Assembly: GCA_009869945.1 (NCBI GenBank)
Contig: WIXG01000144.1
Coordinates: forward strand, 114,608-178,607
Direction of reading: 5' to 3'
DNA length: 64,000 nucleotides
Source of the DNA: Mesaphorura yosii
Taxonomy: Eukaryota; Arthropoda; Collembola; Poduromorpha; Tullbergiidae
Shown here: one piece after another, positions 8,153 to 28,583 of the stretch
Position numbering within the stretch: the first letter of the stretch is position 1
How the letters are laid out: each line of letters opens with the position of its first letter
Position numbers and translations under genes: made by a program
Notes under the pieces: generated by a model
Databases searched by the model: none
Seen by the model: only the letters and a program-made list of their open reading frames with translations
Told to the model about the DNA's origin: nothing

Positions 8153-9388
8153 ATGTTGACTCAACTGGAGCTGGATATAATCGAAAGGTATGCGACAGTC
8201 ATGAGCCGAGTTGGTATATTCCGAGTGGATTGGGATCCGGACACGAAAACCTTCGCCAGCACTTCGTCTTGGAAGAAACATGCAGCTGCTCTGATTTTGA
8301 CGTTAACGGGTCCTCTCCAGCTCGGGTTCGGCATAAAGGCTGGCCTAAATTTGCTCAACTCTGAAGAGCAAATCTCAAAGCTTGGGCTGCGACTGACACC
8401 GCTTTGTGCAATACCGGGCTACGCGGTGGTTTTGGCATGGAACATCGTGCTCCTAGCTCGTGCGAATGATTTGATGCACCTGTTCAATCAAATGATGATC
8501 TACGGTACGAAGAAAGGTAAGCCAAACCAAAATATTGTAAGAAAAAGAATTCACATACAGGTAATTCATGTAATTTACTCTAAAGGAATTGCGCCCAACC
8601 CGACTTTGAGGGCTAAGCTCTTCCACCACAGTCAACAAGCTTATTATTCGGTTGGCCTCGGTGTTTGTTTCATGCTGTTGATAGTCGAGTACTTCAATAA
8701 ACGTGCGGAGAACTGGAGTCTCTGCTACCTGCTGCTATTAACCGCCCACAACGCCTGCTTCGTAGGGTCTGGTACTTTTATACTCGGAGTCGTGCAGATG
8801 TACGTTTACTTCTTTCTGGTGGTTGCAAACGATGGGTTCCAGCTAGACCTGCGGGCCGCTTCGAGTTCGAAGGAGTCGAATGTAATCTCGAACATGGTCC
8901 ACAATTACAAGTCATTAAGTCTCCTGTGTGGATTGTTCAACGATGGGATCTGCAGAGAATTTGTTCCTTTGACCAAGTATCTGCTTTGTATGACAGCCAT
9001 GATTGGGTTCAGCGTGGCGACTTCGCTACATACAACCGATTTTGCAACAAGTGCATTCAAGTACACTTGGATTATGGGCCCGCTTTACATACTGGGCGCC
9101 CTTATCCTCGGCGGCAACATGATGAGTTCGATTTGGTATTCGGGGAAGGCTTACATACGAAAAATGAGATACCTTCTCGCCACGACACGTGGTAAGTCTG
9201 GGGTGGCCCCGCCAGGAGGCAGAAACGATGACGAGCAGCGCCTTGTAAGGTCGATATTCAAGTCTCTGGCCCCGATACGACTCATGATTGGCGGGCTGTA
9301 TTACATGGAAAAGGAAGCCACGTGTACCTTTGCGAATTTCACCGTGGTCGGTACCATGAATTTGATGCTGGTACTTTCGAGCAAATAA
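8153..9388 (+). CDS. 7TM chemoreceptor, tandem copy 1
   Basis: ATG at 8153 (MLTQLELDIIERYA), stop TAA at 9386. The frame is open throughout, but comparison with copies 2 and 3 shows a 69-nt insertion at 8517-8585 that has perfect intron ends (GGTAAG...AAAG, phase 1). Removing it gives KKGIAPNPTLRAKLF, matching KNGITHQVNTRAKYF and KDGISQSVSVRAKLF in the neighbours, so the mature product is about 388 aa. About seven hydrophobic helices are visible. The signature end is LAPIRLMIGGLYYMEKEATC followed by FTVVGTMNLMLVL. This is inferred to be a gustatory-receptor-superfamily ion channel of sensory neurons; the family assignment rests on topology, length, C-terminal pattern and tandem arrangement. 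The N-terminal WDPDTK motif is shared with the other copies. Confidence 0.8.
   Translation: MLTQLELDIIERYATVMSRVGIFRVDWDPDTKTFASTSSWKKHAAALILTLTGPLQLGFGIKAGLNLLNSEEQISKLGLRLTPLCAIPGYAVVLAWNIVLLARANDLMHLFNQMMIYGTKKGKPNQNIVRKRIHIQVIHVIYSKGIAPNPTLRAKLFHHSQQAYYSVGLGVCFMLLIVEYFNKRAENWSLCYLLLLTAHNACFVGSGTFILGVVQMYVYFFLVVANDGFQLDLRAASSSKESNVISNMVHNYKSLSLLCGLFNDGICREFVPLTKYLLCMTAMIGFSVATSLHTTDFATSAFKYTWIMGPLYILGALILGGNMMSSIWYSGKAYIRKMRYLLATTRGKSGVAPPGGRNDDEQRLVRSIFKSLAPIRLMIGGLYYMEKEATCTFANFTVVGTMNLMLVLSSK
8517..8585 (+). other. Probable 69-nt intron unique to receptor copy 1
   Basis: Starts GTAAGC and ends CTAAAG. Its length is a multiple of three and it has no stop, so it would also be read through. 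Copies 2 and 3 have no insertion here. Confidence 0.7.
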
Positions 9389-9389
9389 A
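9384..9389 (+). terminator. poly(A) signal overlapping receptor 1 stop codon
   Basis: AATAAA contains the TAA stop (9386-9388). Confidence 0.45.
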
Positions 9390-9687
9390 ATTGGATGTAT
9401 GTCACCCAAAATTACAGAAAATGCTAGTCGATATCTCTGTTACCATCGAATCAGCTCAATTCTGGTATTGTCGTTGTTGAACATAATAATGTAGATGTTA
9501 TCAAACTAATAGAACTATCAAATAAATCGATTTAGACTGAATTACATTATTTGCAAAATATTGGTCATGCCGTTCAATACTATCAAAGATCCCATTTTGA
9601 TTGCGAATTTTGCTACGCCACATTCCCGTTTTTCTGTTTTCTAGCTCCGCCGAATAGGTTGTAACTTCTGACTACGACACGGTGAAG

Positions 9688-10878
9688 ATGTTGACGCAGG
9701 TCGAGCTCGATATCATCGAATTCTACGCGTCCGTCATGAGCAAAGTTGGCTCGTTTGGACTAGATTGGGATCCCGAGCAGAAGATTCTCAGCCCTACGGC
9801 CCGGAAGCTGAAGTACTCCTTCACGTTCTTTTACCTCGTTTCAGCCCCACTTCAACTCTGGTTCATTTCGAGGGCTGTCCTGAAGCTGCTCACGTCTGAG
9901 GAACAAATTCTGAATCTTGGCCTCCGTCTGATGCCACTGTGTTTACTTCCGGCGTATTTCCTAACCTACCTATTTCACGTCGTTTTCTTCTGTCGCAGAG
10001 ACGAACTGGCCCATTTATTCAACCAAATGCTTGCAATCAGTTTAAAGAATGGCATCACCCATCAAGTCAATACGAGAGCAAAATACTTTCGGCATGGTCA
10101 GCATTTCTTCTACATGCTGGCAATCGGCGTGGTCCCACTGGCGATTGTTGGCGAGTACTTCCAGAAAAGGAACGAGAATTGGAGCAGCTGGGTCCTGGTC
10201 GGTTTTCTGGTCCATAACGCGTATTTTGATTGCATGGGAGTACTTTTGTTCATACTCGTGCAATTGTACGTGTACTTCTTCCTGGTGATTATGCACGACG
10301 GGTTACACGTGGACAAGGGCATGGAATCAATATCGACCGAGGAGCCGAACCCGAGCCCAGATCAAATCTTGACTACGGTTAGGCAAAAATTACACAATTA
10401 CAGAGCTATGACTCTGCTCTGCAAATTCTTCAATGCAACGGTGAGCCGAGAAATTGTTTTATCGTTCAAGTATTTGTTTTGCCTTGTGGGCATGATCGGA
10501 TTCAGTGTCGGAGTGCACATGCACCCGACGGACGTGCCAAGCACCGTGTTCAAGGCGGCGTGGGTCCTGGCTCCGATTTACGTGTGGGGCGCTCTGATAC
10601 TTGGCGGCGACAAGATGAGCTCCGTGTGGTACTCGGGAAAGGCGTACGTGCGGAAGCTAGAACGAGTGTCAGGACAAACAAAAGCCATGTCCGCGCCCGA
10701 GAGTGCCGGAAGCATGCCCCTCGAACGACGGTGGGCACGGATGGCTATCCGTTCACTGATTCCAATCAGCATCAACATTGGGGGCCTGTACCAAATGGAG
10801 AAGAAAGCCAAGTGCACGTTCATAAATTTCGTAATTATTGGGACCATGAACCTCATACTTATATTGTCAAGTCAGTAG
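9688..10878 (+). CDS. 7TM chemoreceptor, tandem copy 2
   Basis: Single-exon gene of 396 aa (MLTQVELDIIEFYASVMSKV), 300 bp after copy 1 on the same strand. Its length is normal for the Gr superfamily. Hydrophobic segments lie at roughly residues 40-60, 75-100, 130-150, 165-195, 265-285, 295-310 and 365-390. Conserved blocks shared with copies 1 and 3 are NLGLRLMPLCLLP, LAHLFNQML, VREIV/VSREIV before helix 5, KMSSVWYSGKAYVRKLE in the last intracellular loop and GGLYQMEKKAKCTF at the start of the last helix. It is probably a membrane chemoreceptor. The loop before the last helix is longer than in copy 3. The gene looks intact. Confidence 0.82.
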   Translation: MLTQVELDIIEFYASVMSKVGSFGLDWDPEQKILSPTARKLKYSFTFFYLVSAPLQLWFISRAVLKLLTSEEQILNLGLRLMPLCLLPAYFLTYLFHVVFFCRRDELAHLFNQMLAISLKNGITHQVNTRAKYFRHGQHFFYMLAIGVVPLAIVGEYFQKRNENWSSWVLVGFLVHNAYFDCMGVLLFILVQLYVYFFLVIMHDGLHVDKGMESISTEEPNPSPDQILTTVRQKLHNYRAMTLLCKFFNATVSREIVLSFKYLFCLVGMIGFSVGVHMHPTDVPSTVFKAAWVLAPIYVWGALILGGDKMSSVWYSGKAYVRKLERVSGQTKAMSAPESAGSMPLERRWARMAIRSLIPISINIGGLYQMEKKAKCTFINFVIIGTMNLILILSSQ

Positions 10879-11469
10879 ATTGGAATTGGAAAATAGTCAC
10901 TTGGCGCTAGGGTTTCATTTGCCCTTCATTTACCCTCAAATGAGACGAGGAAATTGAAATTTGCTGACTGCTTTGCCATCCATTTACTCTCAAAAATGGG
11001 AACGTAATTAATCGGAAATCGAAGATTCTGTGACGGCAGTGCGCTTTACATGACCTCCAATTATCTCAGTCTGGTCAATTAACTGGTCCTTTAATTATGA
11101 CTAAGAACCTGTAATTTATTTTTAACTGTCTACATAATTGTGTTGATCATTTTATCAAGTCAATAGTTTATGTACACGCTGTCTTATCATGCCTTAATTA
11201 GAAACGAAATCGTTGGCCTACCAAATTCCTGTGGAATTTTCCCAACATCGCAAAGCACCGTCGGCATGAGAGGAATGAGGTTTCAGAAATCTGAAAATTA
11301 TAGTGCTAAGTAAACTTAGATCACGTAATTAAGTAATTATACTGTCACAAACTGAACTCCATGCTCCTCAATAAAATCTGAAATTCAGTATTTACTCACA
11401 GTACAATTCTTGTAAACCTGATAGTGGCACCTTACAATTTTACTCCAAAAGTTTTCATTTCCCAGAAAG
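10879..11469. other. Intergenic spacer in receptor array
   Basis: AT-rich, no reading frame of interest. It separates receptor copies 2 and 3 and must hold the copy 3 promoter. Confidence 0.5.
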
Positions 11470-12591
11470 ATGCTGACACAGATTGAGATGGAGATAATCC
11501 AGAAATACGCTGTGGTCATGAGCCGAACTGCCATATTTGAGGTCGACTGGGATCCCGCATCGAAAACGTTAAGACCGACAAAATCTCGGTTGAAAAGAAG
11601 CGTGTCTTTGCTGTACACCGCTTGCAGTGCGACCCAAGTCTGGCTTACATTGAATACGGCTCTGCAGCTGATGAGCAACAAGACGCAGATCATGAATCTT
11701 GGCGTCCGGGCCATGCCGCTATTTATTCTGCCGCCATTCTGCCTGGTCTTCCTTTGGCATTTGGTGTTCGTCTTGCGAAAAGAAGATTTGGTGAGTTTCT
11801 TCAATCAAATGATGTCTCGTTCCCTGAAGGACGGCATTTCTCAGAGCGTCAGCGTCAGAGCAAAACTTTTTCGCCACAGCCAGCACGCAATGTACGTGCT
11901 CGCAGCTGGACTCAACCCGCTAGTCATCCTCGACGAGTATTTCCAGAAGAGCGCGGATAACTGGTGTCTCATCCCTCTTCTGATTTCACTCGTCAATACT
12001 GCATGGGTGGCCTGCCTCGGCGTGCTCCTTTTTGCAGTTACGGTACTCTACATCTACGTGTTCTTGACCATCACCAACGACGGGCTGCGAAAACAGAAAC
12101 GCGCATCTGACTTGGCTCGCATGGTTCACAATTACAGGTCACTAGCCTTGCTTACTCATCTTTTCAACGTGACCGTCTGCAGAGAAATTGTCCCGTCGCT
12201 CAAATATCTCTTCTGTTTCGTAGCCATGATGGGTTTCAGCATTGCGATTGGGCTACGAACAACCGAATTCTCTGGTAATGCAATGAAGTGGGTCTTCATT
12301 TCATCTGCGTTCTACATTTGGGGAGGACTGATCGTTGGGACCAACATGATGAGCTCTGTCTGGTACTCTGGAAGTGCGCACGTCCGCAGACTTGAGCGTT
12401 TGTCTCTTATCCAGGCGTCTACGAAATCTTTGAATGAATTACAAGAGCAGCTGACCACGATCAAGTCCCTGGCACCGATTCGAGTCACCATTGGCGGGCT
12501 GTACCACATGGAAAAGGAGGCCAAGTGTACATTCATCAATTTCATTGTTGTCGGAACCACGAATCTTGTTCTTGTACTATCAAGCAAGTAA
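11470..12591 (+). CDS. 7TM chemoreceptor, tandem copy 3
   Basis: Single-exon gene of 373 aa, ATG at 11470 (MLTQIEMEIIQKYAVVMSRT), stop TAA at 12589-12591. It shares the WDPASKTL N-terminal block, NLGVRAMPLFILPP, VSFFNQMM, the MVHNYRSLALL loop, VCREIVPSLKYLFCFVAMMG, NMMSSVWYSGSAHVRRLE and the terminal LAPIRVTIGGLYHMEKEAKC. It is the shortest of the three because the loop before the last helix is trimmed. It has the same inferred role as copies 1 and 2, with a different ligand range expected from divergence in the outer helices. Together with the stubs at 6.7 and 16.1 kb it shows an actively turning-over tandem family. Confidence 0.82.
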   Translation: MLTQIEMEIIQKYAVVMSRTAIFEVDWDPASKTLRPTKSRLKRSVSLLYTACSATQVWLTLNTALQLMSNKTQIMNLGVRAMPLFILPPFCLVFLWHLVFVLRKEDLVSFFNQMMSRSLKDGISQSVSVRAKLFRHSQHAMYVLAAGLNPLVILDEYFQKSADNWCLIPLLISLVNTAWVACLGVLLFAVTVLYIYVFLTITNDGLRKQKRASDLARMVHNYRSLALLTHLFNVTVCREIVPSLKYLFCFVAMMGFSIAIGLRTTEFSGNAMKWVFISSAFYIWGGLIVGTNMMSSVWYSGSAHVRRLERLSLIQASTKSLNELQEQLTTIKSLAPIRVTIGGLYHMEKEAKCTFINFIVVGTTNLVLVLSSK

Positions 12592-14503: not shown

Positions 14504-16090
14504 CTTCAAAGGATTGTCAGTTCTGAAATCTGAACGGCTGCGTCTACAATGAAGTCTTACAATAGAAATCCACCGCCAAAGTGAGCGATACAGTCACAGT
14601 AATAGTGTAATGAGGTTGTGTAATTAGCACTTGTGAGTCACATAGGAATGACGAAAGTGGCAGCGTCGATTTTGTTCTCTGCAATTTTAACTTACCACAA
14701 CTTCCGATTATGTCTGGTTTCAAGGCTCGCAATTTAATGGGAGCTGAACACCTCGTATGGGAGCCATAAATGCTGTGCCCGAATTATACACGCATTTCAG
14801 AGCTTATCACCTCACGCGGACGGCGGACTGTGTCTGTCGCGTATCTCCGCAAGCAGATTCAGATCATTTACAGCACGGCACCGCATCTCACTCGTAAATT
14901 TCTGCACTGATCAGCACAGTAAACGTAGTAAATACTTCGTCGATGACGACGAAACACTCATTACTAATACTACAAATATTAATACATGCGGATTTAATTG
15001 GAAATTTACTGATGGGTTCAACGTCAACGTGGAATTTTTCCTCGAAAAATGTGCGGAATTCAGTTCAAGACTTCCATTTCGATGCCCGTCAAAGCAAATT
15101 CGACTCGACAGTCGACACTGATCTTAAAAGTACATTAGTAAATATGAAAACCAAGCTAGCGTAGTCTAGTGTTAAAGCGCTGAGGAGAGCAATGAAGGTG
15201 ATGATGACGATGACGAAGAGCCAAACAATTTAAGCATTTAACGTATTATCAGAAACAATACACAATATGCGTGTATAAAGGAACAGTAAATGATTCCAAT
15301 GCAGATGACACTGCTCCTATTTGGACGAGGTACTCCGCAACGCAGCACGCGTACGATACTCTCATCGTGTAAATGGGTAAATGAAATGGCAACAGTTGCT
15401 GATTGTGACTGTGAATGTGACTATAAGCACTATAAATTTTGCTACCATACAAGGCACGATTCGTCATAACGTGTAAACGATGTACTGGAATAAATTATCA
15501 TAAAATTACGAATTACCTCTCGCACCTGCAATCGCGGTATTCGCTAACGTAAATGAGAGTGTCGGCACCACCAAAGATGCAGTGGCAGAAGATGAAACAC
15601 GAGCACACAATCCTCAAATGCCAATTTTTACGAGATGCATAACAAAAACAGCAACGCAGCGCTTTAAAGTTGAATGCATTGTTTCAGTTTTTAGCATACA
15701 TTTTATGTAACGTTGCGTCAGAATAATTAAAAATAGGCTTCAAGCACTAAACACTCGTAAATATTTGCATTCCATGCTTGTTGATTGACGCATGTCACAC
15801 GTCAGTGCAGAATTCTTTTTGCATGCAGGTTCTGTCGAATTCACCGCATTGCACCGCAACGAGGAAACACTTGAGTATTTGTCCAATGGAAAGCCTAACT
15901 TTGCATTTGTCAATTGGAGTTTTATGAGTTCATGACACTGAGCTCGTCTGCTCGTGCTCGCGCGATTGAGTCGGTTTTACTCGATTCTGATGAAAAGTGC
16001 AGGCAGACTGCTGACAGGGCATCACCGCATGTGTATGAAAAATCAAAGTGAGGCACTTCAAAGGTGAGGTGAGTGCTTCTAATAATTCTT
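14504..16090. other. Intergenic, no gene recognised
   Basis: AT-rich DNA with only short reading frames; the longest (14943-15164, plus) has no domain or splice partner that I can see. It contains the promoter of the minus-strand Thr-rich gene. Confidence 0.45.
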
Positions 16091-16212
16091 ATGACTCCCA
16101 TTCGGGTCACCATGGCGGGGCTGCACCACATGTAGAAACAGATAAAATTGACACTGATCCACTTCCTCATCATGGGACCATGAACATGTTGTTTCTGATG
16201 TCGAAAAAATAA
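16091..16212 (+). pseudogene. Decayed C-terminal exon of a 7TM chemoreceptor
   Basis: Translation from 16091 gives MTPIRVTMAGLHHM, then an in-frame TAG, then KQIKLTLIHFLIMGP, then a frameshift into TMNMLFLMSKK and a stop at 16210. Compared with APIRVTIGGLYHMEKEAKC...INFIVVGTTNLVLVL of copy 3, this is the same last helix with one nonsense change and one frameshift. It lies 3.5 kb past the intact array, on the same strand, across the Thr-rich gene. Confidence 0.8.
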
Positions 16213-16595
16213 TTGGACAAAGGAGTATTGTAGAAAATTGTACTGAAGGTTGAGGTGAGCAATTCTTGAATTCTAACGTCACCAGCTCAGCTCATGAAAA
16301 GCCATGGCTTCAGCTTCTTTCCAAAATTAAAGCGAAACAGTAAGCTGTTTTATTAAAATTCGGTGTTTGATCTTGAGCAATTGATAAAATCCTTAAAATT
16401 ACACTAGTCTAATAGTTTTACAGTTTAACACTTGACAAAAATCCTATAGTAATTAGCAATTAACATTTAAATATCATCACAGTGAGATCAGACAGACAAC
16501 TTATGATTTGTCATTGTCACCTCCTATAAAGGGTCTTCAGTAAAATGAGTATTGGCACCGGAAGCCAGTTTGCGGCGAGTAAGCGCCTTTCTGAA

Positions 16596-19500
16596 TCAGG
16601 TCACTTGCTCCTGCGTCTGCACCTTGAGCTCGTTCAGCCCATTCATCTGCTGCCGCTGCTCCATTTTGCTCCGCAGTTTGTCCAGCTGAATGGCTCGTTC
16701 GTGTTGTACTTGCGTGACTCGCGGCCCGGCGCTCTTCTTCTTGTGCGGCAGCGCAAACTTAAGTTTGTGCCAGAGCCACGGGTCATTCCACTTCAGGTAC
16801 GTGTTCATCTTCATGTACATGCGCAGATCGTCGTCGTAAACGTCAGCCTCGGACAGGTCGTCCCCGATGAGGATGAGGATGAGACGGTTCGTCTTTTCGT
16901 TGAGCGCCTGCGAATGGGCAGTCTTGAACTCGAGTCGCGACCAGATGGACTCGACAAAGTTCTTGGAGAGGATGATGACTGTGCGGCGGGACTTGTCGAC
17001 AGACTGCACGATTTGGTCGGGGATCCAGTCGCCTGGTGTCCAGTCGCGGTAGTGCAGGCAGAGCTTGAAGCCTTCCTCCTCTTCCAGCCGGCTCACGAGC
17101 TGAGAAATTACCCACGCTTCGTCCTGCACCCAAATGTAAATCAGCCATTAGCATTAGCATTAATCTAACCTTGCCTACATGCCTTATCAGGATTTTCTCA
17201 CGAATCTCCTTAGATTTTATCCTACCTTGTGTGAGAAGCTGACAAACGCATCGTACACTTTCTCGTACTCCTCTTCGTCATCGGTGATGAAGAAGCAGGC
17301 GCCGAAGCCCTTCGAGTACAGGAAAGCGCGAATTGCCCAACCGTGCTTGATGTAGGTGACAATCAGGATCGCCGTGAATGCAAAGAGCAGCCCGGCAACT
17401 ACGGCCAACGCAAGCACGGAACTTGAAAGCCCATTGTCGTACAGGTAAGAGCAGTATTCTGCCTCCAGCGCCGTCTGGTCACTAGATAGCACGTGACGCA
17501 CGATGCTGGCGTTGCCTACGCCGTTGCCGTCGCTGCGGCTGATGCACGTGAGTTGCTCGTAGTCACCGATTTGCTTGAAGTATGTCTTGACGAGTTTGTG
17601 AAACTCGCAGTCTTCGCAAGAGAATTGGTTCTGTGCCAGGAAAACTGATAGCGATGAAGAGGGATTCGTGGCGTTGGTGCCAACAACAGGCGCGGGTGCG
17701 GCTGATGTCGATTCGTTGCCTGCAGCCTCTTCGGGAGAAATGAGGATTTTTAGGAAGCCCAGCGTATCGAGTTTGTTTTGGCTCAAGTCGATTCGCACGA
17801 TACTCGATGAAATGTCTGGAAGACAAATTAATAAACCAATGATAATTATCAATGATAAGCTTTGATAAGCAATGCAAATGCATACTTGACTTTTGGCTTA
17901 CTTTGTGCATGGCTCGCGCTCAAAAATCTGTATCCATTTCCAGCCAGATTCAGCACCACCTTGTAGCCTCTTGGAATGCGGATGGCCTGCGTGTTGGGCA
18001 CAAAATTCTGCAGTCGCCGGTGGGAGCAGTCGATTGCGACTGTCAAGTTGAAGGGAATCCGCCAGCACTCGCAGACTGAAGGACAGACGCCTTCGGAGTG
18101 GCCACTGCCTTTGGGTGGTTGGAAAGGGCAAATCAATTTTTCGGGCCCAATGCTCTTGAACAAGCCCCCAGCCAAAGCCGGCGGGGCAGCACAACGCAGG
18201 TCACTCGTCTCAAAATGAATTCCCTTCACTGCAAAGCGGTGGAATGCGAGTGTCCTGCAGTCGCAGTCGAGTGGGTTTCCATTCAGCTTCACAGCCGTGT
18301 TGCGTTTGTCCGAATCCTCCAGAAACAGCGCGGCGTGGTCCATGTCGACCGTAGAAATGTTGTTGGAGCGTAGGTCGAGAGTCAGCATCGTCGCAATGCT
18401 CAGGAAATTAATGTCATTCACGTGGAGCTCCGTCAGGGCATTGTGGCTCAGGTCGAGCGAGTTGAGGCGTAGGAACAAATTCTTCCAGTCGTCATAAATG
18501 GCAGGAATTTGATTTTTCGAGAGGTTCAGCGTCTGGAGCTTAGTGCAGAAACGGAAGAAGGACTGCTGGAAACCAGAATCGAGGAGAAACGCCGCTTCTG
18601 CGTGGGAACCGTCCGCCCCGTCGATGAGTGTGAATTGGGGACCGCTTCCGCTCCCCGATGCCGACGGGGGCTGCGCAGGCGGTGAAAGGCTCTGCAGGTT
18701 GTTGTTGCTCAAGTCCAATTCGAGAAGGGCTGTCAAGTACTCGAACGCACGAGCGTCAATTGAATCGATCTGAAAAAATACAAAAACAAGTGATAAACGT
18801 GACATAAATCAAAATGGATAAAAAAACAAACGCTTGAAAATGTCAACAGCACCCAATCAAAGCGAGTCAAGTGTGCTTGGTGAAATTGCCAATTAACCCG
18901 AAATAGCTAGAATTACGAATTAAGAGATTGGACAGAAATTACGGCAGGGGCAAATTACAGTTAATTAGGGATTAGCTTGAACTCATAGAAAAATTATACA
19001 GAACAAATGGCCACCCGCTCACTCATTCGAGCGAAAAATGTGAAGTGGCTTTTGTAGTTTGTACCATCATCGTGCGATTTATCGATCGTTGTGAAGTACT
19101 GATAACAGAATATAAGGCTCTGGCTGGCAGGCTCACTACGCATTGCAGTAATAAAAGCAGAGTCCCCGCGATAGACCGTGACATTCATTACTTCAAAGCT
19201 GAATAACAAGTGTTGGCTGTCCACAAGATGAAGACTTTAGTGTCCGTTATCGTAATTTTGGTTGTCTGCAGTGGATTTTGCAGTGCAGGTACGTTAAAGC
19301 GTAGAGTCCCGAAGCTCCGTTTATTAATGCTCGACGACGCCTATGATCAATTTCAGGCTACACCGGACCCACGAACCAAGAAGGCGTGGACCTGATCAAG
19401 TACTACGAAGGCTGGTACCCTAATTTTTACAACGATCCCGTCGGGATCCGCACTATCGGCTATGGGCACGCCTGCCACGTGTGGGACTGCTCCGTGCCCC

Positions 19501-22126
19501 TCAATGGCAAGTACCCCGTGCCCCTCTCCTTGACCAATGGTGACCTCCTCCTAAAGGACGATCTCTCCTACCCTGGCCGTTATGAGGCATGCATCCGTAG
19601 CGAAATCACGTACGCCAACCTGAACGCTAATCAGTACTCAGCCCTCGTCTCCTTCGCATTCAACCTCGGCTGCGGCAGCGTGCAAACTTCTACTCTCAAG
19701 CAGCTGCTGAACTCAGGCAACACGCTCGGAGCCTCGCTGGAGTTCGCAAGATGGATCAATGCAGGAGGAAACCCACTGCTCGGCCTTGCACGCCGTCGTG
19801 AATCGGAGCGCCAGCTTTTCTGCAAGTCGGGCGGATGCGAGACGCCCTGCGCCGGGTCGATCAATGCGGATTCGCTCAACATTCGCAAAGATCCCAACAC
19901 ATCCGCTTTCATCGTCGGGTCGTACACACAAAACACGAGGGTTGACCTCTTCTCACGTGTGACGGGCACAGTCGTGAATGGAAACCCGTATTGGTTCCGG
20001 TGTGGCCCCGGTTTCATTTCGGCGTCTTACGTTCAAATTGTCAACTCGGGAGCGTCGTGGTGTTCAGTCAACTAACTTGCTAATTGCTAATATTACTTGA
20101 GAAAGTTCAATAAAAACTGATTATCGATTGCTTACCAAATTATTCGCCATCCGGAGCGTCTCCAGTCTTCCCAGTCCCTTGAACACTCCACGAACCAGTC
20201 GTGTCACGAAATTATCGCTCAAGGTCAGCGACTTCAGATTCGGCGCCAAGAATCCTTCAAACTGCACGATTTGGTTGAGTCCCAGATCCAGCTGAGTCAG
20301 TGCGGGCAGCTTCGAGAACGCGTCTGGCGCCACCGTCGTGATCAGATTTGCACTGAGGTTGAGTGTACTCAAGTTCTTCAGCGCGGAGCCCCAAACAGGC
20401 ACGCGAATCAGTCCATCCGAAATCAGCTGCAGCATCTGCATCGAGCCACCGAGACCACCAAAAGCCGTCTCGTAGTTCGCCGTGAAGACGGCGCTCAGCT
20501 CGCTGGTCGCTGCGTGGTCGCCGTAAAGTGTCGTATTCGTTTGCGTTTGAGCATGTGCGAGGAAGATCGTCGGGTTGTTGTCCAGATACGAAATATACAG
20601 GCTCTGAAGGCGCTGGAGCCCGTCGAGGCGAGGAAGCACGGAAAAGTTGGTGTAGACCAGATCGAGGGTGGTCAGATTCCCCAGCCCGTCGAATGCATTG
20701 TAATGGATTTTGTTTAGATGAGTATTCTGTCGCAGTGTGAGCACACGCAGGCGGCCCAACCCGGAAAACGTATCCTCTCCAACCTCCCGCAGTTGATTGT
20801 TGCTCAAGTCCAGGAGCTCCAGGCTGCTGGGGAATTTCGTGTCATGCAGGCTTTGTATCGCATTTGAACTGAGGTCGAGGAGCTTCAGTCGCTTGTTCCC
20901 TTCGAAATCCGGCGTGCTTAAGAAGACCATCTGATTTTCCTTCAGATGCAGCTCCTGCAGCCGCTCCAGCGACGAAAAAGCGCCCTCCGGGATTCGGACG
21001 ATGTTGCTTCTCCTGAGTTCGAGGGTTTCTAACGATTGAATGCCGGCGACAAATGAAAAGAGGAGACTCGTGTTTGTGATTGGCAGCCCCGAGCTTTGCT
21101 TGTCTTGAGGAGGTTCGAAGCTGAAACCGACCAGGCGGGTCTTTGGGACTGAGATGGAGGCGAGGAAATCGTCCAGGTTCTGAAAATCAATGGAGGAGCA
21201 TAAAAATTAAGTTTAGACAGAAGTCAGGACAGTACAAAGGTGTTTGTAATCGCGATTCGCGATATTCGACGGTGTTTTGAATCACACGCATGGGAATTTC
21301 CGATAAAAAAAAACAGGTTTTAATGCTTTATTTACGAGCAAAGCGAGAAATTGCGAATGGATTGCGTTTTCGCGTTTCGTACGTGTCTTAATGCAATCCA
21401 TCACGAGCTTCCCACTAATTCATCTCTACCGACGCTTTAAACTTCAAATCTCCACAGTTTTTTACCCTCAGCTTAATTTCGTGCTGGTTTTCCTCGTCCC
21501 GCTGCTGCTGCGCGTCAAATTTTCCAACAAAATCTGCGTTCCGAGTTCTGAGTCCTGCCGTCGTGTATTTGGGTCCGAATTTAATCGCAATCGCGCTTGC
21601 TACTTATCAATGGAAAAACCCTTAATGTATTAACTCTTTTGAGACTTACCTCTTTCGTTAAGATAGGGCACAGGCTGAGCTTCAGCTTATAAAAGTATTT
21701 GTCACTGCCGCCCTCCAAATCGAGCCCCTGCAGGAGTTTCCACTCCATTTCACGATCAGGCGCGTAGGGATTGCATTTCACCGCGATCTGAATGAGGTTG
21801 AAGTCGTGGACATGGGCGCTGGCGACTGTCGAAGAGTTTGCTGCCGTCGTTGACGCTGACTCTCCATCGCTGCCGCTGCCATCCACGATTGCGTTGGGAT
21901 CATACTGGCCTGAATTAAGGACGAGGGTAACATTGTGCACTTCGGCAAACAGTGAATTGGGGCACAGCAGCTCCAGGCCATGCCGCCCACCACCCGATTT
22001 GGATTCACAGAAGCATTTCGGAGTGGATACCGAGTCACAGCTGAATTCGAACCCTCCTGCACTCGTGATCGTGGCACTGATAAACGCTATCAGGAGCAAG
22101 AACGAATGCGAATGTGCAGCATTCAT
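16596..22126 (-). CDS. Toll-family receptor (LRR-TM-TIR)
   Basis: Five minus-strand exons: 22126-21650, 21179-20136, 18769-17902, 17815-17226 and 17123-16596; all phases fit, giving about 1168 aa. Order: signal peptide (MNAAHSHSFLLLIAFISA); Cys-rich N-terminal cap (CDSVSTPKCFC); two long LRR blocks (LDLSSNAIQSL, LDLSNNQL, LNLSANLITTV and others); LRRCT with NPLDCDCRTLAF; the protostome-type LRRNT CPSVCECWRIPFN and another LRR; second LRRCT; TM at about 929-951; TIR at about 982-1130 with YDAFVSFSHK, RDWTPGDWI and DPWLWHKLKFALP. Family role: cell-surface receptor for a Spatzle-type ligand that signals through MyD88 to NF-kB for immunity and patterning. The third intron (18770-20135) carries a complete antisense lysozyme gene. 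TIR box motifs are intact, so signalling is expected. Confidence 0.92.
19101..19117 (+). promoter_or_regulatory. Candidate core promoter of nested lysozyme (GATA site + TATA box)
   Basis: TATAAGG at 19111-19117 lies about 110 bp upstream of the lysozyme ATG, with GATAAC immediately before it and a TCACTA initiator-like sequence at about 19132. GATA factors drive many arthropod fat-body and gut immune genes. I found no good NF-kB-type GGGRNYYYCC site in the same intron by eye. Confidence 0.4.
19228..20075 (+). CDS. Secreted GH24 (T4-type) lysozyme with C-terminal SH3-like domain
   Basis: Exons 19228-19288 and 19357-20075, with a 68-nt intron (GTACGT...TTTCAG, phase 1), giving 259 aa. Order: signal peptide 1-20 (VIVILVVCSGFCSA); GH24 muramidase domain about 28-165 with the catalytic triad spacing of phage T4 lysozyme: E38, D47, T53 in YYEGW...YNDPVG...TIGYGH (E-x8-D-x5-T); then SH3b-like domain about 178-250 (SINADSLNIRKDP ... 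ISASYVQIV). Cysteines are numerous, as in a secreted enzyme. It hydrolyses peptidoglycan, so its role is antibacterial defence or digestion of microbes. GH24 enzymes belong to phage, bacteria and fungi, so horizontal origin is likely; the intron and signal peptide show domestication. It lies antisense within an intron of the Toll gene, with poly(A) signal AATAAA at 20109. Confidence 0.92.
20109..20114 (+). terminator. poly(A) signal of nested lysozyme gene
   Basis: AATAAA 34 bases after the stop and only 22 bp from the Toll exon/intron border at 20136, so lysozyme transcripts may run into the Toll exon in antisense. Confidence 0.55.
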
Positions 22127-24068
22127 TCTCAAATCCGAATCTCGATCATCGGCGTACTCGAACTCCTTCACTAACCACTTGATAATTCAGCGATTCACTG
22201 ATTATTGTTCACTGATTCATGTTATGTAATGCTCCATTTGCATGGCAAAAGACGACTGGCTGATTGGGCACAGATGCAAATTACACCGGAGACGTTACCG
22301 TTAGGTTTGCTTGGCACACACACAGCGGGCAGCGGTTTGTTATCTTCCAGTGAGGACGATACACGATGCTGATGACTTCGTGCTGCTAACTGCTTGCACA
22401 ATGCAATGTCTGAAGATGAGCGGATTTCCGGTTCATCTTGCAAACAAACACAGCAGATTGCTCGCAGATGTGTTGTTCACTTCAGTTCACTTTGTGAATC
22501 GTGATTTCGTGATGTGCAAGCAGCACCGCACAGATTTAGGTCGTCCAAACAATGGATTAGTGGATTCAATGACTCTTCACTCCACGATCACAACTCCACT
22601 CGCACTCCAGCGGAGTACAAGAATAGAACTTCGGTTTATCTGATGCTGAACTTCGATCTTCTGCATTCGTTCAATTCACTGCCTCTGCTTGAATTTGGAA
22701 CACTTGAATTAGTCACTTTGTCGGTTGTCGACGTTTCTTATAAGCAATTCCAAATTCCAATGACCTGCACATAAAAATGTCCAAAGAAAGACGAATTGGT
22801 TAAGTAAAGCACTAAGCACTTTTGGTATTGTTGAAAGTATTGAGCAATCTCAGTCTCCGTGATCGTCGTCTTCGTGTCCAAGCACAAAGCACCAAGTACT
22901 TTACCACGTCCAACTCTCTCTTAACGTGGCTCAGCTTCGCTTAACCACTTAACGTGTTGATACATTAGGCAAACAGCAACAGCAGTATGATGGTAACGCT
23001 GGGCTGCTGGCTTTAGGTTTCTTTATCAATTACACTTTTAATCTCCACATGCAAGACGAATGGTAGGCAGTGAAGAAGGGGTTGACAAAAGAAACTACCC
23101 AAAACATCAACTAAGATCCTGTTGGGAGCGTAGTTATTAACGTAGCACGACCACTGCGACTGCGACTACATCGTTACGTTGTTGAAGGACATTCTTGCAT
23201 CTTTCTTAACTGACTGACTGACGACTGCACTACGCTAATTTAGCTTGTGGTATTTGTGTTTTTGTCTTTACTTGCCTTTCACCTCACGTAATGAATTCTT
23301 AGAAATCTTGCAGTGCTGAGTGCTTTGCTGTGCTGTGGTGCTTTATTGATATATTAACTTGAGTTATTAAGTATTGCGTGCTAAGCAAAACGGGCAAAAC
23401 CACAAGCAAAGTAATCATATCAAGGAATGGGAAGGAGATTTAGCTCCGAGGCATGAAAATGAACACGAAGTTAAAGGCTTAAAGACTGTCTGACTGCCTG
23501 ACTTGAGAGCTGAGAAATTGAGATGCAGATTTCCTACTAATTACTTTGTTAATCTTGGTCGTTGCTTTTGCTGTTGCTGCTGCGGTTTACTTAACCTAAG
23601 TCAACATAATGCATAATGCCGTGTGTACCGATGCCGTCTGCCGTCACGCGTACGAAGAATGAACCGAATGAACTATGATTCCCGATTGCCCAGACTTCGA
23701 TAATTAGCTAATTGCAGATGCTGTTTCGTTTTAGACAGGACAGGCAAATTGATGGCTATAATTAACTTCTTGCCTGAAAGCTGGCATCGAATTAGACTGC
23801 TGCGTACGAGAGAGGCTGAAGCACTGCCTGCACGAAGATGAACAAAGAGTTCGCTGATTGCGGATGGAGGAGGCAGGCTCAAATTCTTGTGCATGTGCTC
23901 CACGTTAAATCTCCAAGTCAAGTCTAAATGAAGAGTGAGGGCAGCAACTCAGCAATAGCAGCAAATAACTCACATACTCTTGACGTTGACTGTTGACGTT
24001 GACAGTACTGATTGATTGGAAGGTTGAGATCGAAATCGAATATTTGAAGGTGCAAATGCGTGAAAAAG
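22127..24068. other. Divergent intergenic region between Toll and RIOK1
   Basis: About 1.9 kb without a recognisable gene. It has many short direct words (GCACTAAGCACTT, AAGCACAAAGCACCAAG near 22800-22900) and small CTGCTG runs near 23560. It holds the Toll 5' UTR/promoter on one side and that of RIOK1 on the other. Confidence 0.5.
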
Positions 24069-26066
24069 ATGTTTGGACACCAAGTTGATAATTCCCCTGA
24101 AATCTGGACGAATCAGAGTGTCTTGAAGAACCCTACGATGCCTGGACTTCGGTTGGCTACCTCGGATGACGAGAAAGGTGACAGCGTTCCAGTTCCTGGT
24201 CAGTTTGACGATGCCAAGGAGGACAAAAGTGGTGGTGGTGATAAGCTGAATACCAGTACGAGGTAGGTAACCAGACAGTAATTAAAACACTGTTAAAGCG
24301 GTTTTGTATTTATTTCATTGCATGTATTTGACAGTGACGAGGTTGCTGACGCCCTTTTCAATCGTAATCTGCACGGAAAATCCACCCTCAACGGGGACGG
24401 TGATAATTACGAAGAAGGAGACTACGATCCAGAAGACGACGACGACGATGACGACGACGGTTACGAAATGTATGGAGACAAAGTCGTAGGGCCGAATTCA
24501 CAAACAAACAACCCGAAATCAGCACCGGAGGAAATGCTCAAGAAATTTGCCTACCGTATCAGCTTGGACAAATACGAAGGTGCCGACCTCGAACCCGAAG
24601 CCGCAACTCGGCTCATTTCGACGCAGAAGAAAATGGCTGCCTCCAAACAGAAGCAAAAGGACAAACGCGATCGTGCGACTGTGGAGCAAGTGATGGATCC
24701 TCGAACTCGAATGATTCTCTACAAACTCATGAGCAACGATAAGCTTGCGTCCATCGACGGCTGCATTTCGACAGGAAAGGAGGCCAACGTGTATCACGCC
24801 ACTGCACCCGCGCTGGACCTAGACAAGCCACCAGACTCTTTAGCAATAAAAGTCTACAAAACATCAATTCTCACATTCAAAGCTCGTGACAAGTACGTCG
24901 ACGGCGAATTTCGGTTCCGAGGCGGATACTGCAAACGAAACCCACGGAAGATGGTCGCTCTCTGGGCTGAAAAGGAGTATCGCAACCTGCTCCGCATTCA
25001 CGCGTCCGGTTCGATTCTCGTTCCTCGTCCAATGATTCTCAAGTCACACGTTCTGGTCATGTCATTCATCGGGAGCCAAGGTTGGCCCGCGCCGCTGCTG
25101 AAGGATGTCAAGTTTGATGAGCCACTGCCACAAGAAGTGAAGGACGTTCTCCAGAGCCAGAGTCCGACTCAACGAGTCGACACGACGGAGGATGAAGACG
25201 AGCGCCTGATGCACCAGCTGATTGCCAAACTGTACCGGGACTCGCTCCTGATTCTTTACCGCCTCTACAAACATTGCAAGCTTGTGCACGCCGATTTCTC
25301 CGAGTTCAACCTGATACTGAAGGACTGGCTGGACTTGTACGTGATAGACGTGTCGCAGTCGGTCGAGCACGACCACCCACGCAGTCTCGACTTCCTCCGC
25401 TCCGATCTCAAGAACGTACAAGACTTCTTCGGCAAACGCCATGTGCTGCTCGGCGACTACAAAACGGTTTTTGATTGGATCACGAGTCCAACGATCGGCG
25501 ACGGCAGTTATGAGCAGGTGCTAAGCGATATTCTGGCAAAAGGAGTGCCGCTGACTGAGAAATCGGAGGATGCTACGGCTGTGGTCGACGAAGAAGTGTT
25601 CAGACAGACTTTCATACCGAAGAAAATGACGGAGGTCGTGCATGCTGAGCGGGATATCAAAAAGGCAAAGGCGGGTCAGGAGCTGGTTTATACAAATATG
25701 CTGGGAATGAAGGCGGACTTGTCGGGGCCGCAAGATAAACCGGATTTGGAAACGGGGACATCCGATTCAGATTCAGAATCTTCAAACAGTGAAAGCGATG
25801 GTGACGGCGAAGGTGAGGACGACGGGACTTCCAAGTTCAAGAACTCAGCTCGACCTCGAGGCGAGACGGCGGAAGAGAAAAAGGTAAGCTTCAAAAGCGT
25901 GCATTAATTTCTTATCAGTTTCTGATTTCTGATTCGTTTGTTTTCATTACAGAACCGGAAGAAATTGGTGAAGGACGGCAAAGCTGAGAAACGCGAGACC
26001 AAAATGAAGAAGCACGTCAAGAAGAGGAAGGAGAAATTGTCACACGCGAACGCGAAAAGAAAATAG
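24069..26066 (+). CDS. RIOK1: RIO kinase 1
   Basis: Three exons: 24069-24262, 24335-25883 and 25953-26066, giving 618 aa. Start chosen at 24069 (MFGHQVDNSPEIW); an earlier ATG is in another frame. VPGQFDDA near residue 50 is the conserved RIOK1 N-terminal motif, followed by an acidic EEGDYDPEDDDDDDDD stretch. Kinase core: DPRTRMILYK, STGKEANVYHA (P-loop), SLAIKVYKTS (ATP Lys), RKMVALWAEKEYRNL, the catalytic loop LVHADFSEFNL and metal-binding VIDVSQSVEHDHP. The C-terminus ends MKKHVKKRKEKLS, as in human RIOK1. It acts in the cytoplasm in final 18S rRNA/40S subunit maturation. All catalytic residues are present. An insertion (QSQSPTQRVDTTEDEDE) before the catalytic loop and a Glu/Ser-rich linker are lineage-specific. 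It is convergent with MPV17L2. Confidence 0.96.
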
Positions 26067-26213
26067 ACCAAGAGTTCAAGTAATTCGTATATTCGTAGCA
26101 CGTAACTGATAAGAAATAACTTTATTAATTGTACCAGTGCGTATTAAAAAGGTAGTGCGTTCTCTGACTTTACACTGACTAGAATTTTATTCTTCGTCTA
26201 AGAATTAAGGCGA

Positions 26214-26969
26214 TTATTTGTAGTCTTCATCCTGTAAGTTTAAAACCAAAAAATGCGATTCCGGATTAAATAACATCGACGTCGACTGGAGCACGGCTTT
26301 GGAAGAGGAAGTTCTGATTTAACTTACGTAATGCTTGGAGTAAGACAGGAATACGTTCCAGAACACAGTGACTCCGTTCACGCAGAGGACCCGATACCTT
26401 GGCTTCAGCCAGAAGAAATTCGCAAACTGAATTGGTGGCCAGACTATGCAATCCCAAAGGTAAATGTTGGGGAATTTGAGCAGGAATTCAGCCCAGGACT
26501 CGGCCAGCGTCTTGCCCTCCAAGAGTGCCATACCCATTATGAACTGTACGTTAAAGCCCGGAGACGCGATAATCTGATCGAGCAGGATTTTCTTGAGGAT
26601 CACACCCTTCGACGTGCCAGGGTACCATTTGTCGAGGTATTTGTAAAAGTAGTGGTGCGGGGGTCCTTGCGTCAATCCGATTATCGTTATTCTACCTGAA
26701 AAACGATCGAAATCAGATTTGAAGAAATAGAATCAGGCAATCAGGCTACGCAACGGAGACGACAGCAGGAACTATATGAGATGAAACGTACCTAATCTGG
26801 CCCAATTAAAATGCTCCCGCACCTTACGCCTAATCTCAATGTGCTGCTCAACCGTATCACCAATGGCGAACAGAATTCCTCCGCTGATTGTGTTCGCAGC
26901 CAGTGCGTACTTCCCGGAGAACAAATTCTTCATGTAGACTGATATGCGAAATGGGGTTTGCGAAGACAT
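26214..26969 (-). CDS. MPV17L2: Mpv17-like protein 2
   Basis: Three minus-strand exons: 26969-26792, 26695-26328 and 26231-26214; the last exon codes only DEDYK before TAA. All phases fit, giving 187 aa. Family features: LAANTISGGILFAIGD (first helix), GLTQGPPHHYFYKYLDKWYP, ILLDQIIASPG, LKFPNIYLWDCIVWPPIQF and NFFWLKPRYRVLCVNGVTVFWNVFLSY, the Mpv17/PMP22 signature. MPV17L2 is an inner mitochondrial membrane protein needed for mitoribosome assembly in mammals. Length is typical. The end of the second exon could also read on to a TAA just past the donor (HYVS), so the tiny last exon is inferred from GTAAGT/TTACAG. It is 148 bp from the RIOK1 stop (convergent) and about 375 bp from the PPIE start (divergent). 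Confidence 0.92.
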
Positions 26970-27343
26970 GGCGAGATCAAACTGAGGTATGAAGCACTGA
27001 CAAACCCGACAGGCTCACAGGAGTCTCGACGTCTTAGGTCCTGGCCCAGATACGAGCTCCTCTGAACCCGGAGGCTTAATACTTAATTAATGGAATGTTA
27101 CGAGTATGATTGCGAGATAAATGTCAGGATCAATTTTACCATTACGAAGTCGTGATTTTTGCACGTGCGTTTCAGCGGCGATCTCAAGGATTCAAGCGGC
27201 AGAAAAGCGTAGACAAAACCGAACCTGTTTGACTTTTGCCTTTTGCGGTTCTGTCATCAAGTTCTTAGAATATTAAGGCGTTTTATTAGTGATTGTAATT
27301 AAACTGAAGCGTAGAATTAGCGTTCAGCTGTACTGATTGCAGG
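26970..27343. promoter_or_regulatory. Bidirectional promoter region between MPV17L2 and PPIE
   Basis: 374 bp separate the two divergent start codons. Both are housekeeping-type genes and no TATA box is obvious. Shared control is inferred from arrangement only. Confidence 0.45.
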
Positions 27344-28583
27344 ATGACGACACCCCAAGCACTGAAGCGTACAGTTTACGTTGGTAAGAAACATGGTCAA
27401 TTGAACTCAGTATGCAACATGGCAAATTGGCAAATCGATTACTTAATTTTAACTCTAATTCGCTGTTTGTTTTGCTTGGCTAGGCGGACTCGCCGAGGAG
27501 GTTGACGCGGACGTTGTTAAAGCCGCCTTCATTCCTTTCGGTGACATCACAGACGTTCAGATTCCTCTAGACTTCGAGACCCAAAAACATCGAGGCTTCG
27601 CGTTTGTCGAATTCGAGGTTCCTGAAGGTGAGAATCCTGAAATCCGATACTGATACGATACTTGTATTCAATAGTTGATTCAGTGATGATGGGTGATTAA
27701 TGTGACTCACAATTAATTATTAGATGCGACCGCTGCAATTGACAACATGAACGACGCCGAACTGTTTGGTCGAACAATTCGTGTCAACATGGCTCGGCCA
27801 ATCAAGGTGAAGGACTTCTCAACCCGGCCGGTCTGGCAAGAAGACTCGTGGCTGGCGAAGCATGCCGGTGAGACGCTGCAGGGCATCGAAAGAGATAAGC
27901 CCGCTGGAGAGGGTGAGGAAGGCGAAGAGTCTGCGGCTGCAAAAGACGCAGAGACCACTGCGGACGGAACGGTCGTTGGACCCGACGTGCGAAAGCCGAA
28001 GAATCCTCAAGTGTACTTGGACATTCAGATCGGAAAGATGACAGTTGGTCGCATGACTTTCGTTCTCCGAACCGACATTGTCCCAATCACAGCGGAGAAT
28101 TTCCGATGCCTCTGCACGCATGAAAAAGGATTCGGGTTCCAAGGTTCTGTGTTTCATCGTGTGATCCCTGGATTTGTAAGTAAATTGGCCTAATTAGCCG
28201 GTTCTACTTCTGATTAGCCCCCCACATTTGCTTTTTGCTGATGCAAACGCCATTTCTTTTATCAGATGGCTCAAGGCGGGGATTTCACGAAGGGTGACGG
28301 CACCGGAGGCAAGTCAATCTTCGGCGCCAAGTTCCAGGACGAGAATTTTACACTACGCCACTCCGCGCCCGGAACGCTCTCAATGGCCAATTCTGGGCCG
28401 AACACAAACGGCTCCCAGTTTTTCATCTCCTTCCAGCCCACCAACTGGCTTGACGGCAAACACGTCGTCTTTGGTCTCATCGTGAGCGGGCTCGACATCC
28501 TCAAGAAAATCGAGAAATTCGGCAGCAATTCGGGCAAGACGTCAGAGAAGATTACAGTCACGGCTTGCGGTGAACTCGTGTGA
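27344..28583 (+). CDS. PPIE: Peptidyl-prolyl cis-trans isomerase E (cyclophilin 33)
   Basis: Four exons: 27344-27383, 27484-27627, 27724-28175 and 28266-28583, giving 317 aa. RRM at about residues 9-85 with RNP2 VYVGGL and RNP1 HRGFAFVEF; acidic linker ([14 protein letters not shown]); cyclophilin A-type domain from about 152 to the end with [24 protein letters not shown] (catalytic Arg), [29 protein letters not shown] and [10 protein letters not shown] (cyclosporin-binding Trp). It is a nuclear spliceosome-associated prolyl isomerase that binds RNA through its RRM; the mammalian orthologue also binds the MLL PHD finger. All key residues are present. Length is slightly above the human 301 aa because of the linker. 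Confidence 0.97.

Follow-up and report, generated by a model that had tools for sequence, protein, structure and literature searches.

A predicted GH24 lysozyme gene lies antisense within an intron of a Toll receptor gene in the springtail Mesaphorura yosii

In the genome of the springtail Mesaphorura yosii (assembly GCA_009869945.1; 93 Mb, 1127 contigs), a complete coding gene for a predicted GH24 (phage-type) muramidase, secreted-looking and with an SH3b-like tail, is contained in a single opposite-strand intron of a Toll receptor gene. The pair lies in a 64,000-nucleotide stretch of DNA that we call the window and is interior to its 178,607-bp contig (C144, WIXG01000144.1; Table 1). A profile search and a protein search of the genome returned two GH24 matches, this lysozyme and one other, and both predicted genes are intronic in unrelated host genes, one antisense and the other sense.

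Table 1. Features of the Toll receptor gene and the lysozyme gene nested in it (window coordinates).
Feature	Position	Strand	Description and evidence
Toll receptor gene	22126-16596	-	five exons, spliced frame of 1168 aa; Pfam, relatives, HMM
Toll exons	22126-21650, 21179-20136, 18769-17902, 17815-17226, 17123-16596	-	all borders GT-AG, one joined frame
Toll intron 2, host of the nested gene	20135-18770	-	1366 bp, phase 0, GT-AG
GH24 lysozyme gene, 259 aa	19228-20075	+	exons 19228-19288 and 19357-20075; Pfam, phmmer, HMM
Lysozyme intron	19289-19356	+	68 nt, GT-AG, phase 1; directly after the signal-peptide-like stretch
TATAAG, possible TATA element	19111-19116	+	0.18 expected; present at least once in 17% of shuffled sequences, within chance
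AATAAA, possible poly(A) signal	20109-20114	+	its end is 21 nt short of the Toll exon 2 border

Results

The Toll gene and its second intron

The host protein combines a leucine-rich-repeat ectodomain (LRR_8, 3.4e-58) and a cytoplasmic TIR domain (2.8e-19; both Pfam) in one chain, its signal stretch and membrane span being judged by eye, and among solved structures it is closest to Drosophila Toll (4lxr) and an Aedes Toll (7b1b). Signalling to NF-kB via a Spaetzle-type ligand is a trait of Toll receptors; here the predicted receptor is assigned from its domains. Besides intron 2, the introns of the gene measure 470, 86 and 102 bp.

The first-pass annotation had described the host intron as joining two leucine-rich-repeat exons of a minus-strand Toll gene, and this join holds up. 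With the exon border marked by a slash, the donor reads TTG/GTAAGC and the acceptor TTTTTTCAG/ATC; the frame is preserved over the join, and the leucine-rich-repeat period is unbroken there. Among the sites scored by our HMM in 15000-23500, the donor outscores 98.5% of GT sites and the acceptor 99.4% of AG sites. Homology is continuous as well: a single phmmer stretch, pairing Toll residues 426-763 with residues 286-616 of Aedes Toll, spans the junction at 507/508, and another Toll of the same genome (L018) aligns to residues 203-758 as a single BLAST piece with 26% identity, its introns lying elsewhere. An intron at the aligned place was absent from all five paralogs aligned for introns (L014, L015, L017, L018 and L019, out of nine other TIR matches in the genome), the register of the leucine-rich-repeat alignment being uncertain.

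The nested gene and its product

Inside this intron, the same annotation had placed a complete plus-strand gene with its own TATA-like element, signal peptide, 68-nt intron and AATAAA. All of the coordinates that could be checked are right: the coding sequence opens with an ATG at 19228 and closes with a stop at 20073-20075, and by eye the N-terminus is signal-peptide-like, so that the protein looks secreted. As for the TATA-like element, TATAAG is present but its frequency is within that of shuffled sequence.

The lysozyme matches PF00959 far beyond chance (2.2e-31, 109.2 bits against a curated Pfam cut-off of 22.3), and alignment shows that it retains the Glu, Asp and Thr that we take, from the known roles of these residues in T4 lysozyme, to form the active site. 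Its C-terminal tail scores 19 bits against SH3_3, below the Pfam cut-off of 27, and phmmer aligns it with solved fungal SH3-like domains at E values of 1.8e-5 to 6e-4. Among solved structures the closest is 8b2s (2.1e-35), a fungal GH24 muramidase from Trichophaea saccata. It joins a GH24 catalytic module to an SH3-like wall-binding module, which is N-terminal in the fungal enzyme, whereas the candidate counterpart in ours is C-terminal (PMC10394673, excerpt).

Tails of the SH3_3 type resembling that of the lysozyme are also found elsewhere in the genome, at C342 and C182 and more weakly at C105. Another is carried by an Amidase_2 peptidoglycan hydrolase (L036 5529-6342, on C616; 6.9e-26 and 2.8e-10), whose gene is not nested in the gene-finder predictions and is perhaps another acquired antibacterial gene.

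A second GH24 gene, also intronic

The other GH24 gene (L012 7003-8122) lies within an intron of a ceramidase-like gene and has the same orientation as that host (L012 6570-8433, C128:39570-41433). Positions 20-72 of the neutral ceramidase profile (PF04734) match before it and positions 69-110 after it, also on that strand, and the two flanking ceramidase exons can be spliced in frame over a distance of 1864 bp; in the other ceramidase gene, on C70, positions 20-262 lie in a single open frame. Our gene finder, which has no model for same-strand nesting, fused the GH24 gene with the ceramidase. The predicted GH24 protein has 245 aa encoded in three exons and lacks an SH3 tail; Asp replaces the catalytic Glu and Lys replaces the Thr, so the enzyme may be inactive. 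Each of the two GH24 genes has a phase-1 intron following its signal-peptide stretch, as expected if the copying went through DNA.

Support for the nest and alternatives to it

The gene finder, a purpose-built two-strand HMM with no prior against antisense nesting and with stop codons omitted from its output, returns the exons of both Toll and the lysozyme, with the window in training and also with the window and L012 held out. When nesting is forbidden, its best path is just 4.1 nats worse, and the Toll splice therefore rests mainly on the homology across the junction. This small cost is the opening for a reading in which the Toll exons on either side are parts of different genes and the lysozyme is intergenic. 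Such an arrangement would, however, require an additional 129-bp exon with no known match and leave one receptor half without a TIR domain, and it runs against the continuity with both Aedes Toll and L018; we consider it very unlikely. That an assembly chimera or a microbial contaminant put the lysozyme there is barely credible: GH24 is widespread in phages and bacteria, but the gene has a spliceosomal intron and a signal peptide, its codon use matches that of Toll (GC3 0.681 against 0.685), its paralog has an intron at the corresponding place, and the Toll exons are intact on both sides. Contamination in particular was rejected on account of the host-like intron, the host-like codon use and the paralog in the same genome. 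As far as sequence can show, the antisense nest is real.

Relatives of the GH24 genes and search for traces of insertion

Relatives of the lysozyme were found in 1080 phage and 984 plasmid records, all below 60% identity, and a scan of genome contigs with only two degenerate patterns gave three loci; viral contigs gave one and one. A GH24 tree of 15 rows, including 10 bacterial or phage loci and only one fungal row, left 10 of its 12 inner branches open. Three cysteine places can be named by motifs of the fungal enzyme: one follows GYGH, and the others are within TSCV and VGCG. The complete set occurs in only three of the 15 rows, those of the fungal protein and of both animal proteins. Elsewhere, the bacterial rows L028 and L029 have two of the three cysteines and 9kbt has one, while L030 covers the last place alone; since L028, L029 and 9kbt fill some of these places, the shared cysteines are a hint and no more.

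A look for target-site duplications and other insertion scars in 18600-20300 found none, which counts against an account by insertion. The repeats in that interval are an 18-nt direct pair, both copies of which lie in the lysozyme exon, and a 12-nt inverted pair.

Frequency of nesting

We ran the gene finder on 223 kb, comprising the window, ten stretches picked for GH24 or TIR, one picked for the amidase and five random stretches (from 60 drawn). It predicted 68 genes, 53 of them with at least 300 coding bases, and 122 introns with a median of 90 bp, nine being at least 1000 bp long. Antisense nesting was predicted for the lysozyme and for one further case (L021 5625-6031), which we hold doubtful because its link to the host, a mitochondrial-carrier-like gene by eye, is a 92-bp terminal exon. 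Among the 17 genes predicted in the five random stretches (L031-L035), none was nested. Because the 223 kb are mostly non-random, we claim no genome-wide rate of nesting.

For comparison, intronic genes make up about 6% in D. melanogaster (PMC3786989, excerpt), and 4.3-8.7% of genes are in nested structures in seven vertebrates, the rates in human and mouse being about half that in Drosophila (PMC8467205, excerpt). According to the same excerpt, 74-78% of simple human and mouse nested pairs are on opposite strands, and nested genes are mostly young duplicates inserted into introns, mostly on the opposite strand. At 6% per gene, finding two of two GH24 genes nested has a probability of about 0.004, a post-hoc sum over two related genes.

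Possible coupling of sensor and effector

The first-pass annotation had proposed that the two genes could be coupled, and a regulatory unit of this kind could work by transcriptional interference, by antisense transcripts covering the 5' splice site of Toll, or by shared open chromatin. In its favour, the genes are on opposite strands, both are of immune type, and the possible poly(A) signal falls 21 nt short of the Toll exon edge, so that the 3' end of the lysozyme could overlap the Toll 5' splice site. We scanned 18770-19227 with assumed kB motifs. Strict sites were absent (0.01-0.03 expected, so their absence says little), and loose sites numbered three against 1.8 expected, which is no excess in what is a weak test; a Toll-driven lysozyme promoter was rejected as a candidate on this count. 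GATA-type sites numbered four against 1.39 expected in the same interval (4.3% of shuffles), this being one of eight motifs, with two regions tried. Also against a regulatory unit, nested pairs in Drosophila diverge in expression, which is taken as a sign of interference (PMC8467205, excerpt). Coupling thus finds no backing in the sequence, and we regard the nest as a regulatory unit as improbable. A bolder proposal has two parts: that acquired lysozymes survive preferentially inside active host genes, and that lysozyme RNA extends to the 5' splice site of Toll and adjusts how much receptor is made, so that sensor and effector form a cis-linked pair. This seems to us more doubtful still. We expect Toll and the lysozyme to be controlled independently, and infer that either transcription unit would influence the other weakly and incidentally at most.

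Other features of the window and genome

No Rfam family and no tRNA was found in the window. At 8153-12588 there are tandem repeats of a predicted membrane-protein gene with similar starts (MLTQLELDIIERYA and similar); a Pfam search with the first copy gave nothing at a threshold of 0.01, and these proteins may be chemoreceptors. Beside Toll, at 24069-28580, are ordinary conserved genes for RIO-kinase-like (by eye), Mpv17/PMP22 and RRM-cyclophilin proteins. Elsewhere in the assembly (L043 and L044, C420:24688-32376), three condensation domains lie in a single open frame of 3156 aa, on a contig that may be a contaminant; a beta-lactam pathway has been reported in Collembola, where a peptide synthetase with such domains is expected (PMC10051947, excerpt), and the frame thus gives indirect support to a springtail source.

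Discussion

Taken as a whole, the account that we favour, and think likely, is that a microbial-type GH24 lysozyme gene was acquired and then duplicated in the lineage of the animal, one copy having come into the opposite-strand intron of a Toll gene. The anatomy, the homology and the catalytic residues are direct observations; acquisition from a microbe and insertion through DNA are our interpretation. The lysozyme gene has a putative promoter region and poly(A) signal, a predicted signal peptide and a spliceosomal intron of its own, and would most likely be transcribed independently. We infer that it is expressed and active, in which case the secreted enzyme would cut bacterial peptidoglycan, with the SH3b-like tail as its wall anchor.

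Uptake of this kind has precedents. Fungal-type GH24 lysozyme genes are known from gall midges, likewise in an arthropod nuclear genome and with introns in some copies, and such genes are also listed for a mite and a fungus gnat; there, however, three copies are in tandem, nesting is not mentioned in the excerpt, and springtails are not named in the text (PMC8455502). The phage-type lysozymes of bivalves likewise entered animal genomes, where they gained introns and were duplicated, although these are other animals and the excerpt does not mention nesting (PMC5303276). The arrangement has precedents too: the GMC oxidoreductases in an intron of flotillin-2 (PMC1847477, excerpt) and 2mit in tim2 (PMC3786989, excerpt) are likewise protein-coding genes in opposite-strand introns, but they belong to other gene families and are conserved across several insects. 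Antisense nested genes being common and fungal-type GH24 being known in arthropods, the Toll/lysozyme nest is a further example of two established phenomena, the nesting of genes on opposite strands and the uptake of GH24 lysozymes by animals. A search of open-licence papers found no nested Toll/GH24 pairing, in agreement with the first-pass annotation, to which no such pair was known. What is new here is the second GH24 match, in which the catalytic Glu has become Asp and which is likewise intronic, in a ceramidase-like gene.

That both GH24 genes are nested is the result that most deserves further study. With an antibacterial enzyme of microbial type inside the gene of an immune receptor, and another copy nested at a different locus, the case is clean and testable. 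Two questions can be put to it: does insertion into introns of expressed genes help acquired genes to persist, and does nesting link effector and sensor? If the two genes are uncoupled, the lysozyme would be one nested gene more, and a reminder that annotation easily loses intronic genes.
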